Assembly (NCBI GenBank): GCA_945860225.1
Contig: CAMAPT010000003.1
Location: forward strand, 62,001 to 126,000
DNA from: Chitinophaga pinensis
GTDB lineage: Bacteria > Bacteroidota > Bacteroidia > B-17B0 > Aurantibacillaceae
Length of the DNA: 64,000 bases
Reading direction: 5' to 3'
Shown: in pieces, positions 8,050-20,111 of the stretch
Layout of the letters: each line of letters opens with the position of its first letter
Numbering within the stretch: the first letter of the stretch is position 1
Program-made: the position numbers and the translations under genes
Notes under the pieces: generated by a model
The model's database searches: none
What the model saw: the letters and a program-made list of their open reading frames with translations, nothing else
What the model was told of the DNA's origin: nothing

Positions 8050-8081
8050 CCATCCCTTTTGGGGAGGATTGAGGAGGGGCT
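8050..8081. repeat. GC-rich repeat at the metH start
   Basis: The stretch CCATCCCTTTTGGGGAGG followed by ATTGAGGAGGGGC is conspicuously GC-rich in an AT-rich leader and contains the mini-hairpin CCC-TTTT-GGG. It ends one base before the metH ATG and so provides the purine-rich run in front of it. In composition and layout it resembles the two arms flanking the DUF559 insert inside metH (10320-10350 and 10758-10788). It may be a solo copy or remnant of that element's end. Confidence 0.5.
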
Positions 8082-8082
8082 T

Positions 8083-11000
8083 ATGAGCACAATACAACAG
8101 GAATTAGAAAAAAGAGTTTTGGTCATTGATGGTGCAATGGGAAGTATGATACAACAATACAAACTCACCGAAAAAGATTTCAGAGGGAAACGCTTTGCTG
8201 ATTGGCATAAAGATTTGCAAGGTAATAACGACTTGTTATCAATCACTCAGCCTCAAATCATTAAAACCATTCATAAAGAATACTTAAAAGCTGGTGCTGA
8301 TATCATTGAAACCAATACTTTCAGCGACACTACGATTGCTATGGCTGATTACGACATGCAAGAGTTTGTCTATGAATTAAATTTTGAATCGGCTAAAATT
8401 GCTAAAGAAGCCATTGCTGAATTTAGAATCGAATTCCCTGAATTTGCTTCTATTCCCAAATTTGTTGCTGGAGCAATCGGGCCAACCAATCGAACCTTGT
8501 CTTTATCACCTAATGTCAACGACCCAGGTTTTAGAGCTATTACATTTGATGAATTAGTAGAAGCGTATACCGAACAAGTGCGCGGCTTAATTGATGGTGG
8601 AGCCGATTTACTATTAATTGAAACCATATTTGATACCTTAAATGCAAAAGCCGCTTTGTTTGCGATTCAAAACTATTGCGAAAAAATAGATAAAAAAATG
8701 CCGGTGATGGTATCGGGAACCATCACAGATGCTAGCGGTAGAACCCTGTCAGGACAAACGACAGAAGCTTTTTTAAACTCTGTTTCTCATGTTGATTTAT
8801 TGAGCGTTGGTTTAAACTGTGCGCTTGGAGCAAAAGATATGCGCCCATATTTAGAAGAACTTTCTAACAAAGCGCCATTTTATGTAAGTGCTTATCCTAA
8901 TGCGGGTTTACCAAATCAGTTTGGTGAATACGATCAAGATGCTCATGAAATGGGACATCAAATAGAAGACTTCTTAAAAGCGGGATTTTTAAATATTGTT
9001 GGTGGATGTTGCGGAACAACCCCTTCACATATAAAACGTATTGCTGAAATTGCCAAAGACGCAAAGCCTCGCAAAAAACCACAGCCTGATACCTTGATGC
9101 ATTTAAGTGGATTAGAACCTTACACCCTCACTCCTGAAAGTAATTTCTTAAATGTTGGTGAACGAACAAATGTTACTGGTTCTAAAAAATTCTTACGCCT
9201 AATTAAAGAAGGCAATTACGAAGAAGCCTTGTCTATTGCGCGTGAGCAAGTAGAAGGCGGTGCTCAAGTCATCGATGTCAATATGGATGAAGGAATGTTG
9301 GATAGCGAACAAGCCATGACAACTTTCTTGAATTTAATTGCATCCGAACCAGACATTTCTCGTGTACCCATTATGATTGACTCTAGTAAATGGAGTGTGA
9401 TTGAAGCTGGATTAAAATGTGTGCAAGGAAAAGCAATTGTTAATTCAATCTCTTTAAAGGAAGGTGAAGAAAAGTTCATTGAGCAAGCTCATAAAATAAA
9501 ACAATATGGTGCTGCTATGATTGTGATGGCATTTGATGAAGTTGGACAAGCAGACACCTTAGAACGCCGAAAAGAAATTTGTAAACGAGCGTATGATATT
9601 TTAGTAGATAAAGTTCATTTCCCTGCTCAAGATATCATTTTCGATCCAAACATATTCCCTGTAGCCACAGGAATGGAGGAACATCGCTTAAATGCCTTAG
9701 ACTTTTTTAATTCAACCAAGTGGATTAAAGAAAATTTACCACATGCAAAAGTCAGTGGCGGTGTGAGTAATGTTTCTTTTTCTTTCAGAGGAAATGACCA
9801 TGTGCGCGAAGCCATTCACTCAGCCTTTTTATTCCATGCTGTGAAAAATGGAATGGATATGGGTATAGTAAACCCCGCGCAATTAGTAGTGTATGATGAT
9901 ATTGATAAAACCTTATTAGAATTAGTAGAAGATGTTTTATTAAACAGACGTGATGATGCCACAGAACGATTAGTTGAACATGCAGAATCTTTAAAAGGAA
10001 TTACCAAAGAAAAAACTGAAAAAGACGAAGCTTGGAGAAAAGGAACAGTTGAAGAACGTTTGAGTCATGCATTGGTAAAAGGAATTGTAGAGTATATTGA
10101 TGCAGATACTGAAGAAGCCCGCCAAAAACTAGGAAGGCCATTACATGTTATTGAAGGTCCGTTAATGGACGGAATGAACGTGGTTGGTGATTTATTTGGT
10201 AGCGGAAAAATGTTCTTACCACAAGTTGTAAAAAGCGCACGTGTAATGAAAAAAGCGGTGGCCTATTTGGAACCTTATTTATTAAAAGAAAAGGAAGATA
10301 ACGCCAAAGCTGCAAAGAACCTATCCCTTGCCCTTTCCGAAGGAAAGGGGACTGAATACGGTTATGAATGGGCAGATCCTCAATATTATGATTTACTAAA
10401 AGATTTTGTTGCTAAACATAGAAATAATCCAACTCAGGCGGAAACAATTTTATGGGAAAGTATTAAGTCAAAAAAATTAGATGATTTTAAATTCAGAAGA
10501 CAGCATATTATTGGAAAATATATTACAGATTTTGTTTGTCTAAAAAAACGATTAATCATTGAAGTCGATGGTTTAATACACCAATTACCAGATGTTAAAG
10601 AAAATGATGAAATACGACAAGCTTGGCTTGAATCAAAAGGTTTTAAAGTAATTCGATTTACGAATAACGAAGTCATAGGTAATTTGGAATATGTGCTTTC
10701 TGAAATAAAAATGGTTTTAGAAGCGCAAAAAGATTACAACGAAGAGAGTGCAGTGGAGGTTCCTCCTTCGGGGGCTAGGGGGCGTGGGAAGATTCTACTC
10801 GCCACCGTGAAAGGCGACGTTCATGATATTGGGAAAAACATTGTGGGTGTTGTATTAGCTTGTAATAACTACGAAATCATTGACCTAGGCGTGATGGTTT
10901 CTTGCGATAAAATTTTAGAAGAAGCGAAAAAAAATAACGTTGATATTATTGGATTAAGTGGGTTAATTACGCCTTCCTTAGATGAAATGGTTCATGTAGC

Positions 11001-12261
11001 CAAAGAAATGGAGCGTTTAAATTTCAAATTACCATTAATGATTGGTGGTGCTACAACTTCTAAAGTCCATACAGCAGTTAAGATTGCGCAAAATTATTCA
11101 GGACCAGTTATTCATGTCAATGATGCCAGTAAATCAGTTCCTGTAGCAAGTAGTTTAATTTCAAATGAATTACGAGATGCGTTTATGGCCGATATCAATA
11201 AAGATTATGAGCGTGTGCGAGAACAAAATAAAAATGCTCAGTCTCAAAATAAATTAATTTCAATGGCGGAAGCCAGAGAAAATAAATTCCCAATTGATTG
11301 GAACAAAACAGAAATCGCTAAGCCAAATTTTATAGGCAATAAAGTATTTGACAATTACGATTTAAAAGAAATTTCTGAATACATTGATTGGACACCATTC
11401 TTTCATAGCTGGGAATTAAAAGGCTCTTATCCGAAAATTTTGAGTGATGCAACGCGTGGTGCAGAAGCCACGAAATTATTTAATGATGCGCAAACAATGC
11501 TTAATAAGATCATTTCTGAGAAATGGTTACAAGCAAAAGCAGTGATTGGTATTTATCCTGCAAATACGGTAAATCATGATGACACAGAAGTATATGATGA
11601 ACAAGGAAATGTAATGGCTACATTCTATTCATTACGTCAACAAAGTAAAAAACCTGCTGGGCAATATAATGTGGCTTTGGCTGATTTTATTGCGCCTAAA
11701 GATGCTCCTTCGAGCGTATCACTTCGAGCGGAGTCGAGAAGCGAGAAGAAAGATTACATAGGTTCATTTGCCCTCACTACTGGCATTGGCATAGATGAAC
11801 ACGTAACTCGTTTTGAAAATGACCATGATGATTATAGTGCGATTATGCTAAAAGCTTTAGCTGATAGATTAGCAGAAGCCTTTGCAGAGTTATTACATAA
11901 AAAAGTTCGTACTGAAATTTGGGGCTATGCCAAAGATGAAAACTTTAGAAATGAAGATTTAATTAAGGAAGAATACGCCGGTATTCGACCTGCTCCAGGT
12001 TATCCTGCGCAACCCGATCATACTGAAAAGAATACCATTTGGAAATTATTGGATGTAGAAAAAAATACGGGTATTATTTTAACGGAGAGTTTGGCAATGG
12101 TTCCAACGGCTGCGGTGAGTGGTTTATATTTATCTCATCCGCAATCTCACTATTTTGGAATTGGTAAAATAAATAAAGAACAAATTGAAGACTACGCCAA
12201 ACGTAAAAACATGAGCATAGTAGACGTCGAGCGTTGGTTAGGTAGTGTTTTAGCGTATTAA
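8083..12261 (+). CDS. metH: Cobalamin-dependent methionine synthase with in-frame DUF559 insertion
   Basis: MetH transfers a methyl group from methyltetrahydrofolate to homocysteine through cobalamin. The ATG at 8083 is chosen (1392 residues): it gives the usual N-terminus and places the zinc ligands at C246, C309 and C310, one residue off E. coli numbering. A longer TTG start at 8059 would lie within a repeat. Modules in order: homocysteine domain (3-330), pterin domain (about 345-620), cobalamin cap (about 650-740), insertion (747-902), cobalamin domain with GDVHDIG (H914), and the AdoMet reactivation domain (about 1080-1392, [12 protein letters not shown]). E. coli has the cobalamin histidine at 759, so about 156 residues are extra; they form a DUF559 nuclease domain. 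A second small insert is at about 1208-1223. All catalytic motifs seem intact and the frame is open, so the enzyme is probably functional. Confidence 0.96.
10320..10788 (+). mobile_element. DUF559 (Vsr-like endonuclease) element nested in metH
   Basis: This block replaces the flexible linker between the cobalamin cap and the cobalamin-binding domain, keeping the metH frame. Its arms are GC-rich mini-hairpins in inverted orientation. The left has CCCTTTCC-GAA-GGAAAGGG (10331-10349); the right has CCTCC-TTC-GGGGG (10762-10774). The 8-mer CCGAAGGA at 10337-10344 recurs inverted at 10764-10771. Between the arms lies a complete DUF559 domain (MetH residues about 770-880): [28 protein letters not shown] (D816), IIEVDG (E827, D829), H833 and [18 protein letters not shown]. 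These are the D, E-x-D and H positions expected of the Vsr-like nuclease fold. No intein splice residues are at the borders, so it probably stays in the MetH polypeptide. Confidence 0.75.
11708..11741. repeat. Short palindromic repeat inserted in frame in metH
   Basis: CTTCGAGCG occurs twice (11708-11716 and 11722-11730). The second copy is part of an imperfect palindrome, CTTCGAGCGGAGTCGAGAAG. It encodes an extra, charged segment ([13 protein letters not shown], about residues 1210-1222) in the reactivation domain, where other MetH proteins go almost directly from the IAPK motif to DYIG. The 15-mer TTCGAGCGGAGTCGA recurs with one change at 16238-16252, outside any gene. Confidence 0.6.
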
Positions 12262-16844: not shown

Positions 16845-17153
16845 GAAAAGCTGAAAATGATATTTTGAAAATAGATTTTAGCTAAGTTTATAGAACCCTT
16901 CTGAAAATATTTTAAGGAGTTGAGGCTATTATTAAATATTAAACTTCTTTTACCTATAAAATAAATCAGCTATAACATGCACAGTTGTATTTAAATCAAA
17001 TCAAAAAAATTATACATGATTTTAAATAGTTTAATCGTAATTATTGACTAACTAATTGTTCAATAAAAAGGGGTATTTAGTTAATTAAATTTCATTATAA
17101 AATTAAAATATTTGTAACTCAATAATGAATCAAAATATTTATAAATCAGATTT
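16845..17153. other. Gene-free AT-rich interval
   Basis: About 300 bases between aroQ and the convergent nuclease-like gene. The sequence is very AT-rich with many stops in all frames. No RNA gene, strong hairpin or repeat was recognised in it. Confidence 0.5.
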
Positions 17154-18629
17154 TCAATTATTAAAATTATTTTCAATAGATTTTTCTATTTGCTTTATAA
17201 CATCAGATAAATTATAGCCAGGGTTTACAAATATCAAATGGCAATTATTTTTTAAACAGAGTTGTTTTTTGACTTCATCCCTTTGTTTATTTTTAATAAA
17301 TGAGGCCTCTCCTCCAAAAAAATCAATAGGATAATAATGCTGGTCACCTTGATACTCAATTCCAATATTAAATTTTGGGAAATAAATATCTAGATGCTGT
17401 TTTCCTAGCCAGTTAGGTCGTCCATGATGAACAACAAGTTCATAAATAAAATGAGATTTAATTTCATAAAATAAATTTGTTTCAGAAATCCAACCCTCAC
17501 CTATTTTTGGTAACCCAAACAATGAACGAATTTCATTTTCAGGCTCATTAAATGTTGCTAAATACTCATGAATCAATATTTCATCATTGAAAACATCTTG
17601 TAATTTTAAATTAAAATTTAATGGAAATTTAATAGGAATAACATCGGTATCAGAATTAGAATTTATATATTTCAAATAATTAAAATATACATTGTCATAC
17701 TGGCCCTTTTCATTAATGTAATTGAATTTGTTTCTCAATTCAAATAATGGAACTTTACCAAATACCAAACATTCTGCGTTTACTACAACATTGCTAGTTT
17801 TCTTGTTTTCATACTGAGAAATTATTTTACGAATATTTTCATTAAAAAAATAATCGTTTAAAACATCAAGATATGAATAATTAGATTTGCTTTTTAATTT
17901 TAGCTTAGAATAGTATTCTTTTTCTAATTTTTTTATTTTTTCGTCTGATTTCGGGCATTGAATATGACAGCCAGTTTCTTCTACAAAATAATAAAGTTCA
18001 GTCAAATGCCCATACTTTTCATAAAAACTGATACTATATTCAAGTAAATCAAATGCAGCATCTAAACAATTGGGAAACTTGTTTATACCATGAAAACAAA
18101 TTTGATCTGCGACTATCCATTTCCAATCTACTTGACCTTGAATAAAAAACCTTTTTAATGAACTTTTCAAGCGTAGTTTTATTAATTCACATTCTAAATC
18201 AAAATCTTCATTTATCTTTTTCTTTATTACACTTGATAATCCAGTAACCCCACAAAAAACATTTGAAAAGATACCAAATTCATTTAATTGTTCATATCCA
18301 TTTTGAAAATCACCTCTTAGAATTTCAGGAAGCTCATCTTTATTTTTCAAACGCATTGATAATCCAAAATCATCAGTTGGGGCATAAAACAAAGATGTTG
18401 TATGAAATTCAAAATGCTTATAAATACTATACTCGATATTATAATTTTCCTTAAAATAATCTTCAATATATTTAAATAAATTTACTTTACCATTATTAGT
18501 ATCTACTGATGATAATGGTGTATATATAAATTTGTATTTCTCTGAAAATTCTTCGTAATACTTTTTTACGAGTACAGGAAATTCCTCATATAATAGTTTA
18601 TCTAATCTTATAATACGGTTTTCGGTCAT
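17154..18629 (-). CDS. Orphan protein with C-terminal Vsr-like nuclease domain
   Basis: A 491-residue soluble protein. The N-terminal ~390 residues match nothing I recognise; they are rich in Lys, Asn, Phe and Tyr and contain three scattered Cys/His sites around 225-235 (ETGCHIQCPKS). The C-terminus has the nuclease core: HLDIYFPKFNIGIEYQGDQHY with D414, E425, Q427 and H431, then GGEASFIKNKQRDEVKKQLC and a strand LIFVNPG. The spacing D-x10-E-x-[D/Q]-G-x2-H equals that of the DUF559 domain nested in metH, which supports a Vsr-like/PD-(D/E)xK fold with Q in the lysine position. The gene is isolated, very AT-rich and next to a gene relic, which suggests an accessory locus. A defence or DNA-processing role is possible but unproven. 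Confidence 0.7.
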   Translation of the reverse strand: MTENRIIRLDKLLYEEFPVLVKKYYEEFSEKYKFIYTPLSSVDTNNGKVNLFKYIEDYFKENYNIEYSIYKHFEFHTTSLFYAPTDDFGLSMRLKNKDELPEILRGDFQNGYEQLNEFGIFSNVFCGVTGLSSVIKKKINEDFDLECELIKLRLKSSLKRFFIQGQVDWKWIVADQICFHGINKFPNCLDAAFDLLEYSISFYEKYGHLTELYYFVEETGCHIQCPKSDEKIKKLEKEYYSKLKLKSKSNYSYLDVLNDYFFNENIRKIISQYENKKTSNVVVNAECLVFGKVPLFELRNKFNYINEKGQYDNVYFNYLKYINSNSDTDVIPIKFPLNFNLKLQDVFNDEILIHEYLATFNEPENEIRSLFGLPKIGEGWISETNLFYEIKSHFIYELVVHHGRPNWLGKQHLDIYFPKFNIGIEYQGDQHYYPIDFFGGEASFIKNKQRDEVKKQLCLKNNCHLIFVNPGYNLSDVIKQIEKSIENNFNN

Positions 18630-18738: not shown

Positions 18739-18996
18739 CTATATAGACCCATAATACAGCGTATTGTTTTTGCCAAATTGAATGTGTTTGTATTTCTTGA
18801 AAAAGCATACATAATCAAACTCTCCAATGACTCTATAAATAAATATTCCGGCAATAATCCACAAACCATATTGATACACAGGATATAGCCATAATACAGA
18901 TTTTAAATAAATAGCCATAGCATTTAACCATATAACACTACCAAAGACTAAAAAATCAAAACAATTGTTGTGGTGGTATTCAACTGAAAATTTTGA
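18739..18996 (-). pseudogene. 3' relic of a DUF3995-like membrane protein gene
   Basis: An open stretch of 85 codons begins right after a TAA and ends in TAG, with no in-frame start before residue 27. It reads FGSVIWLNAMAIYLKSVLWL, then GLWIIAGIFIYRVIGEFDYV and CFFKKYKHIQFGKNNTLYYG. These are the last two membrane segments and the tail motif of DUF3995-type proteins, which normally have about four helices. The 5' half is missing, so this is a truncated remnant rather than a working gene. Confidence 0.55.
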
Positions 18997-19016: not shown

Positions 19017-20111
19017 CTATTTCTTGTAATATTCCTTAAGAAGACTTGTTTCGTTAAACAAATGATACAATTCTTTATAAGTAATTAAAAAACTTGGGCT
19101 ACCTGCCGCATATGGTCCTATTTCGTATTGATTAAACGTAAACATCAAACCTGAGTTGGTTATTAAAAAGTTTTCGGTGATGTTAAATTTTCCTGGCTCA
19201 AAATCCCAACCTTCTCTGCCAAATTCTTGAACAAATTTTTTCTCTCCGATTGCATTCAATTCGTTTTTATAATTCTTAATAAACAAATCTGCCAGTTGTA
19301 ACACATGACCATTCTCTAAACTAAAATTTGAATAACCGATTCCTGCGGAAGGATGAGCGGCACCAAAATAATAACTTGAATTTACAAACGAAAAAGAAAT
19401 CACTTTTGAGTCGACCATTAACGGATCGCATATATACTCTTCATTAAATCCACTCTCACTGCCAGATTGAAATTTTGCTTTTTTAAAGGCCTCTATGGTT
19501 TTATATTCTTTCCCAATAAGTAATTCAAGGAGTTGTCTATTAATTTTATCTTCAACAATTTTGTTATTGTATTTTATAGTTGCCGTTTCTATAGTTAAGG
19601 TGGAACACAAGGTGTCATGATACTCTATTTCATCTGCAGGTTTCAACTTATTATTCGCAACCCTATCACAATCTTCTGAATATATGTTTGAAAATTTAAT
19701 GCCGGGGTAATTTTGTGCGACTTCTTGCAATTTTACAGGGAGTGTTTTCTTGGTTTTAGGATTTTTCCACGTTCCCTCAACAATAGATTCAGAAACCATA
19801 AGGCATTCAAATATTCCGGTAACGTCACCTTTATTGTTAAATTCAGTCATCTCTACCCGATTATTCTTTTTTATCTGACCTTCAATTTGAATTGGAGTGC
19901 CAATTTTCACATAATAATAACTCCCGTAAACTTTATTTTTATTCGTTATTAAATCAACGATGATCGGAATATTGCCAATAGTTCCACTATACTTTTTATA
20001 CGTTTTTTGATTTTCCTTTACTGTAATTCTTGCTCCACGACAACTGTTTGAATATATGGAACTTGAAAAATAGGGTATAATACAAAAGGCTAATAACAGA
20101 AAGAATTTCAT
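19017..20111 (-). CDS. Exported DUF3298-containing protein
   Basis: A 364-residue protein with an N-terminal signal peptide (MKFFLLLAFCIIPYFSSSIYS). The first third is a beta-rich segment with YKKYSGTIGNIPIIVDL and GSYYYVKIGTPIQIEG. The second half matches the DUF4163/DUF3298 arrangement of RsiV-like and lipoprotein-type proteins: SFSFVNSSYYFGAAHPSAGI, LADLFIKNYKN, and LMFTFNQYEIGPYAAGSP. DUF3298 domains bind ligands such as lysozyme in RsiV; here there is no membrane anchor or anti-sigma part. The role is unknown. Confidence 0.8.
   Translation of the reverse strand: MKFFLLLAFCIIPYFSSSIYSNSCRGARITVKENQKTYKKYSGTIGNIPIIVDLITNKNKVYGSYYYVKIGTPIQIEGQIKKNNRVEMTEFNNKGDVTGIFECLMVSESIVEGTWKNPKTKKTLPVKLQEVAQNYPGIKFSNIYSEDCDRVANNKLKPADEIEYHDTLCSTLTIETATIKYNNKIVEDKINRQLLELLIGKEYKTIEAFKKAKFQSGSESGFNEEYICDPLMVDSKVISFSFVNSSYYFGAAHPSAGIGYSNFSLENGHVLQLADLFIKNYKNELNAIGEKKFVQEFGREGWDFEPGKFNITENFLITNSGLMFTFNQYEIGPYAAGSPSFLITYKELYHLFNETSLLKEYYKK

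Follow-up and report, generated by a model that had tools for sequence, protein, structure and literature searches.

A rare, AT-rich gene near aroQ encodes a two-part protein with a predicted Vsr-like nuclease module and an N-terminal region without a recognised family

The described enzymes that come closest to the protein reported here are the EDxHD/Vsr-like homing endonucleases, represented by I-Bth0305I and by the CapR-type outgroup of PMC12350094, a large set of EDxHD/Vsr-like homing genes that, according to this paper, carry CapR-like repeats; these enzymes have in common with our protein the fold, the acidic residues together with a histidine, and the succession of an N-terminal region and a C-terminal cutter. 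The same fold is found in the Vsr very-short-patch-repair endonuclease, and a Vsr-like fold can also act on RNA, binding it without cutting, as is seen in FASTKD4 according to PMC11879112. The DUF559 (PF04480) domains, one of which is located within metH on the same stretch of DNA, share the spacing of their motif with our protein. With regard to the genes that are located between the integrase and the repressor of phages, PMC7693887 reports that they protect against other phages in some cases, and that cloning of the three genes at this position in phage Dub35A did not confer phage resistance. No publication on the N-terminus described below, or on its nuclease module as a defence system, was found in the EDxHD, Vsr and DUF559 literature, among the matches listed.

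The window, i.e. the whole stretch of 64,000 nucleotides that was analysed, carries a single gene for a two-part protein, whose parts are located as follows:

17154..18629, reverse strand: two-part protein gene, 491 aa; intact open reading frame with an ATG start, stop included
17595..18629, reverse strand: N-terminal region, residues 1-345; new, fast-diverging and without a known fold
17157..17558, reverse strand: C-terminal nuclease module, residues 358-491; ENxxR helix, GEGWISET, D-x10-E-x-Q-G-x2-H, GGE and RDxxK
17337..17390, reverse strand: candidate active-site stretch from D414 to H431 (D414, E425, Q427, H431), by motif and conservation

Among the 27 window genes compared, this gene has both the lowest GC content (25.7%, i.e. 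0.257) and the lowest GC3 (0.171), the mean GC of the other 26 genes being 0.350 (35.0%) with a standard deviation of 0.025, in agreement with its description as AT-rich in the initial annotation; it is a rare, single gene, probably acquired from elsewhere.

The nuclease part is of a known kind. The residues D414, E425-x-Q427 and H431 had been correctly picked out beforehand (the second element reads E425-x-Q427-G), and the claim that they are spaced as in the DUF559 domain of metH holds, with D-x10-E-x-[QND]-G-x2-H being present in both. Shuffling the 491-aa protein 100,000 times yields this pattern in 39 sequences, while it is kept in all 32 distinct full modules (13 of which are rows used to build the profile) and in 77 of the 85 distinct nuclease domains collected; positions E383, D414, E425, G428, Q430, H431, G439, G440, D451 and K454 are reported as invariant in an alignment of 24 sequences. 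The conservation, the shuffles and the invariant residues indicate that the motif is real, and the stretch from D414 to H431 is therefore the likely active site.

The C-terminal ~130 residues are widespread, being matched in 50 plasmid records and 357 phage records (E<=1), in none of which does one place span 80% of the protein at the same threshold. The closest PHROG families, phrog_27771, phrog_19778 and phrog_34504, are phage proteins of unknown function that match the C-terminal ~110-115 residues (E 3e-25 to 1e-20) and stop short of residues 1-360; among the weaker PHROG matches are families annotated as HNH or homing endonuclease. In Pfam, NCBIfam and PADLOC, no model matches the protein at E<=1 except for one chance-level match: there is no Pfam match to the Vsr family model, none to PF04480, and 0 families of PADLOC 2.0.0 match at this threshold. 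When ten relatives were compared with PADLOC, matches occurred in L028 only (best E 0.0029), outside the nuclease core.

Two further nuclease-like domains of the same genome are worth describing in their own right. In the window, metH (8059-12261) contains an in-frame DUF559 nuclease-like domain at about 10315-10770, between two B12-binding domains, which matches PF04480 at E=1e-33; the metH of a congener (G080, L060) is without residues 753-904 and reads straight through. The insert resembles a selfish nuclease in a housekeeping enzyme, and no intein domain is found among the Pfam matches of metH. On contig C7 (L002; G000, 64800), a 565-aa frame combines repeated CxxC units with a distant copy of the nuclease domain and looks, by reading, like the CapR-type homing proteins of PMC12350094.

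The AlphaFold2 model of the 491-aa protein has been built on 24 aligned rows, 2 of which cover the N-terminus; by tens of residues, its pLDDT is 89-98 for residues 381-490, which are confidently predicted to form the nuclease domain, and 78-88 for residues 361-380. In the comparison with VIA-align 2, where the matching region is residues 379-490, the top match is the homing endonuclease I-Bth0305I (3r3p, Z 10.3, rmsd 3.0, 96 residues) and the second is Vsr (1cw0, Z 10.1; 1vsr, Z 9.4); three mitoribosomal proteins are found at Z 7.6-9.6, and below them, at about Z 7 and lower, come resolvases, VRR-NUC proteins and restriction enzymes. Foldseek alone gives Vsr at E 0.34 in the PDB, with no match at E<=0.001, and 41 matches at E<=0.001 among viral models (BFVD), several of them named restriction or homing enzymes. 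The Vsr-like nuclease tail of the initial annotation is thus supported by the sequence profile and by the predicted structure.

The N-terminal region had been described as unrecognised, and for residues 1-345 this description stands: no convincing match was found in Pfam, NCBIfam, PADLOC or PDB sequences, and a known housekeeping family, which the initial annotation had set against its own reading, was not matched in the libraries searched. The best Pfam match of this part, TopoV_HHH (E 0.096), has been discarded as chance. In the AlphaFold2 model, good pLDDT (about 78-90) is restricted to isolated helices at residues 1-30 and 131-160, and pLDDT is under 50 for 236 of the 491 residues; in a separate prediction of the N-terminus of the relative L003 (4 sequences), mean pLDDT is 36. 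No fold is therefore claimed for this region, and the structure searches of the PDB and BFVD mainly probe residues ~379-491. The best-conserved stretch, L-K-R-F-F-I-Q-G-Q-V-D-W, is located at residues 158-169 (18123-18158), and the pattern conserved across the N-terminal relatives is K-R-[FY]-[FH]-[IL]-x-G-x-[VM].

Relatives with the same N-terminus were sought in 87 genomes of the family, 394 of the phylum, 395 of the class, and 70 and 9 of two other families, with an additional scan across the genome-contig collection. Intact N-terminal relatives are present in three other genomes of the class, namely L003, L152 (G615) and L160 (G818), and the partial end of another is present in G813; the L003 contig is labelled as a Chryseobacterium gleum MAG, and its contig positions and protein are identical to those of G556. 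Of the 87 genomes in the family of the window genome, one has the gene intact, and single-sequence and profile searches found no intact copy in the other 86. Weak N-terminal matches in G084 and G066 from the single-sequence search were dropped, being absent from the profile search, and a scan of viral contigs with the N-terminal profile gave 395 pattern matches, 0 of which were confirmed.

Over aligned residues, the six pairs of the four relatives are 22-36% identical in the N-terminal region, against 47-67% in the nuclease. Compared with the best of 30 shuffles, the N-terminal pairwise scores are 14.9 against 1.9 bits for P0001-L152, 11.8 against 7.5 for P0001-L160, 10.2 against 0.2 for L003-L160 and 5.2 against 2.4 for L003-L152, while the similarity of L152 to L160 is not above the shuffles (-1.3 against 4.1 bits, best of 30); these comparisons give modest evidence for placing L152 and L160 in the N-terminal family.

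The four full copies are located at four unrelated chromosomal sites (gene names by reading, for L003 and L160): the window copy after aroQ; the L003 copy with an rpoN-like gene on one side and, on the other, a small ORF followed by a porU-like gene; the L152 copy next to genes for an IS200-like transposase and a GIY-YIG protein; and the L160 copy between a DAHP-synthase-like gene and glmS. In the 11 other genomes of the genus of G818 for which the DNA upstream of glmS was compared, no copy was found at that position. Also near the L152 gene, at a distance of about 2.1 kb, is a 1796-aa gene that by reading looks secreted, and this neighbourhood (L158 5658-8742) is a possible nuclease cluster. 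In the congener G081 (contig C18, L008 about 1510-1602), a 31-codon 5' remnant of a relative, 63% identical to residues 3-34, is located at a different site, between genes that by reading are accC-like and VWA-like; the likeness between the DNA upstream of the window gene and that upstream of this relic is not significant, its score being reached by 388 of 2000 shuffles.

The surroundings of the gene in the window comprise three further features:

16845..17153, no strand: 309-bp stretch separating aroQ from the gene, interrupted by stops in each of the six frames
18742..18945, reverse strand: DUF3995 gene relic, reduced to the C-terminal half (PF13160 profile positions 62-113 of 124)
19017..20111, reverse strand: DUF3298 gene, a neighbour that belongs to the same variable stretch

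Downstream of the gene, the stop-filled stretch is followed by aroQ, a name given on the basis of reading and of the gene's conserved position after xerD; the empty stretch of about 300 bp reported earlier is indeed closed in every frame. Upstream of the gene are located the DUF3995 relic and the DUF3298 gene. The relic, which the initial annotation had listed as a neighbouring gene remnant, is real (PF13160, E=7.7e-8), with 33.3 bits that fall slightly below the cut-off of 34.3 bits, and the DUF3298 gene has no match in the 19 other genomes of the genus (1 of 20, i.e. the window genome itself). The occurrence of the DUF3298 gene with the DUF3995 relic marks about 17.1-20.1 kb as a variable stretch. 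In the congeners read, xerD and aroQ stay together; beyond aroQ their gene order differs, so that no clean empty site can be defined. The proposal of a variable site is supported by these unmatched neighbours and by the lack of an intact copy in the rest of the family, and conservation of the locus in all relatives, which had likewise been set against that proposal, is not what we find.

The nuclease module itself has a wider range. In 32 distinct proteins examined, the full module is present from the ENxxR helix to the end, and comparison of their N-termini gives 5 linked groups, with 7 left unlinked (E<=0.01); the largest group, of 16 proteins, has cysteine pairs that by reading are zinc-ribbon-like in most members. 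Full modules are found on plasmids of Sphingobium, Arthrobacter, Arcobacter, Acinetobacter, Paracoccus, Agrobacterium and the archaeon Haladaptatus, as well as in a Staphylococcus phage and in viral contigs, where the best 80 of 165 confirmed loci were taken for context. In L076, L079, L083 and L085, the nuclease gene is immediately preceded, on the same strand, by a repressor-like gene, which matches HTH_3 in each case, with a weak Phage_CI_repr match in L076 and L079 and a Peptidase_S24 match in L083; it is separated from the nuclease gene by 52 nt in L076, 40 nt in L085 and 31-106 nt, depending on the start, in L079, and overlaps it in L083. On the downstream side, the next gene in L074, L079 and L085 is an integrase gene, which in L074 faces the nuclease gene. 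In total, a repressor-like or integrase gene adjoins the full module in 5 of 19 viral contigs, in a scan of 1-3 hand-chosen neighbours, taken singly, in 12 of the 19 and without a control set.

Other placements of the module are of a different character. In L077 and its near-copy L090, the gene is located two genes before a terminase gene, and proximity to a terminase gene is a common position of homing endonucleases. Full-module viral contigs have the module within 2.5 kb of a contig end in 5 of 16 cases against 1.9 expected, a count that omits 3 of the 19 contigs (L085, which is under 20 kb, and L094 and L128, which were not tabulated). When 120 neighbours were compared with PADLOC, 96 families matched at E<=1e-5, without a control, so that no enrichment is claimed; the 25 families listed include homing endonuclease, TIR-like, reverse-transcriptase and RmrA models. 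The 120 are what remained of 133 neighbour ORFs once 13 had been taken out manually, namely two drug-resistance genes, one neighbour of L158 and five from the surroundings of each of L003 and L163.

The gene thus combines a two-domain layout, a predicted nuclease fold and a conserved motif with a patchy, single-gene distribution at unrelated sites. Our preferred reading, held with moderate confidence, is that of a horizontally moving, stand-alone two-part DNA endonuclease, encoded by a single gene and most likely serving in defence against phage or plasmid DNA; the proposal of the initial annotation, a single-gene defence or DNA-processing system, is partly supported in this way. The steps that we infer for it concern DNA cleavage, the roles of single residues, N-terminal recognition and defence itself: the C-terminal 130 residues would act as a nuclease module of the Vsr/EDxHD type, whose active-site residues are invariant and in which D414 and E425 probably hold the metal, while E383 and H431 would help hydrolysis; the N-terminal ~345 residues would be a variable recognition part, choosing the DNA or sensing infection; and the cell would be defended against incoming phage or plasmid DNA without an adjoining partner protein or methylase. 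The repressor-like and integrase neighbours of module relatives in viral contigs lend this reading indirect support. Against defence, the nearest characterised relatives of the nuclease domain are homing enzymes, PMC12350094 attributes homing to a large related group, the argument from location draws on relatives that have other N-termini (zinc-ribbon-like by reading), no PADLOC model matches the protein, the cloned Dub35A genes conferred no resistance according to PMC7693887, L077 and L090 lie close to a terminase gene, and no more than 5 of the 16 scored contigs have the module within 2.5 kb of an end. The location of L152 beside GIY-YIG and IS200-like transposase genes also fits a cluster of selfish nucleases.

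The main rival reading, which we hold to be less likely, is a free-standing homing endonuclease: the N-terminus would bind a long target site, and the nuclease would cut alleles that lack the gene, into which the gene is then copied. This reading would account for I-Bth0305I being the top fold match, for the homing and HNH endonuclease families among the PHROG matches, and for the resemblance, by reading, of the relative on contig C7 of the same genome to the CapR-type outgroup of PMC12350094; yet homing predicts one site, whereas the four relatives occur at unrelated ones (their N-termini, and hence their targets, may have diverged), and no Pfam DNA-binding repeat is found in the protein or in L003. 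Defence is favoured over homing because of the unrelated sites, because the gene is intergenic, with no intron or intein seen, and because some of the viral-contig relatives adjoin repressor and integrase genes, at places that superinfection-protection genes can occupy. If it is a homing gene instead, it is an unusual chromosomal one, without intron or intein.

A toxin-like or regulatory nuclease, e.g. an abortive-infection or stress enzyme that acts on RNA or host DNA and is restrained by its N-terminus, is improbable: the large N-terminal region of unknown role, the binding of RNA by a Vsr-like fold, as in the FASTKD4 study (PMC11879112), and the 1796-aa secreted-looking gene about 2.1 kb from L152 would suit it, but every conserved candidate catalytic position is kept, no obvious antitoxin or partner gene adjoins, and the top fold matches, the mitoribosomal proteins aside, are DNA enzymes. 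It is very improbable that the protein is a Vsr-like repair enzyme nicking T:G mismatches, to which the rank of Vsr as second-best fold match (Z 10.1) would point; the Pfam Vsr model gives no match at E<=1, the gene lies between aroQ and the DUF3995 relic with the DUF3298 gene, with no methylase seen adjoining, and its intact presence in 1 of 87 family genomes is unlike that of a housekeeping repair gene.

Returning to the defence reading, we tentatively extend it to a broad, unnamed class of single-gene nucleases against mobile elements, occurring in bacteria and archaea, with one conserved Vsr-type module (ENxxR-GEGWISET-D-x10-E-x-Q-G-x2-H) and many exchangeable recognition parts, that of this gene being undescribed in the libraries searched. 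A fixed cutter with variable front ends would offer a simple route to what each front end recognises.

Compared with the known systems, the protein shares its motif spacing with the DUF559 domains and differs from them by having no PF04480 match (E<=1); it shares its fold with Vsr (Z 10.1), while being much larger and sporadic, with no Pfam Vsr match and no adjoining methylase seen. E383, D414 and H431, invariant in 24 sequences, are candidate counterparts of the E-D-x-H-D active-site residues of the EDxHD/Vsr-like homing endonucleases; the protein differs from these enzymes in that no intron or intein is seen, in having no Pfam repeat domain and in occupying four unrelated sites, and the full modules described here have an extra ENxxR/GEGWISET segment. 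What is new is the joining of this N-terminus to the nuclease, together with the picture of a single cutter that is combined with many different front ends and is located in mobile and variable places.
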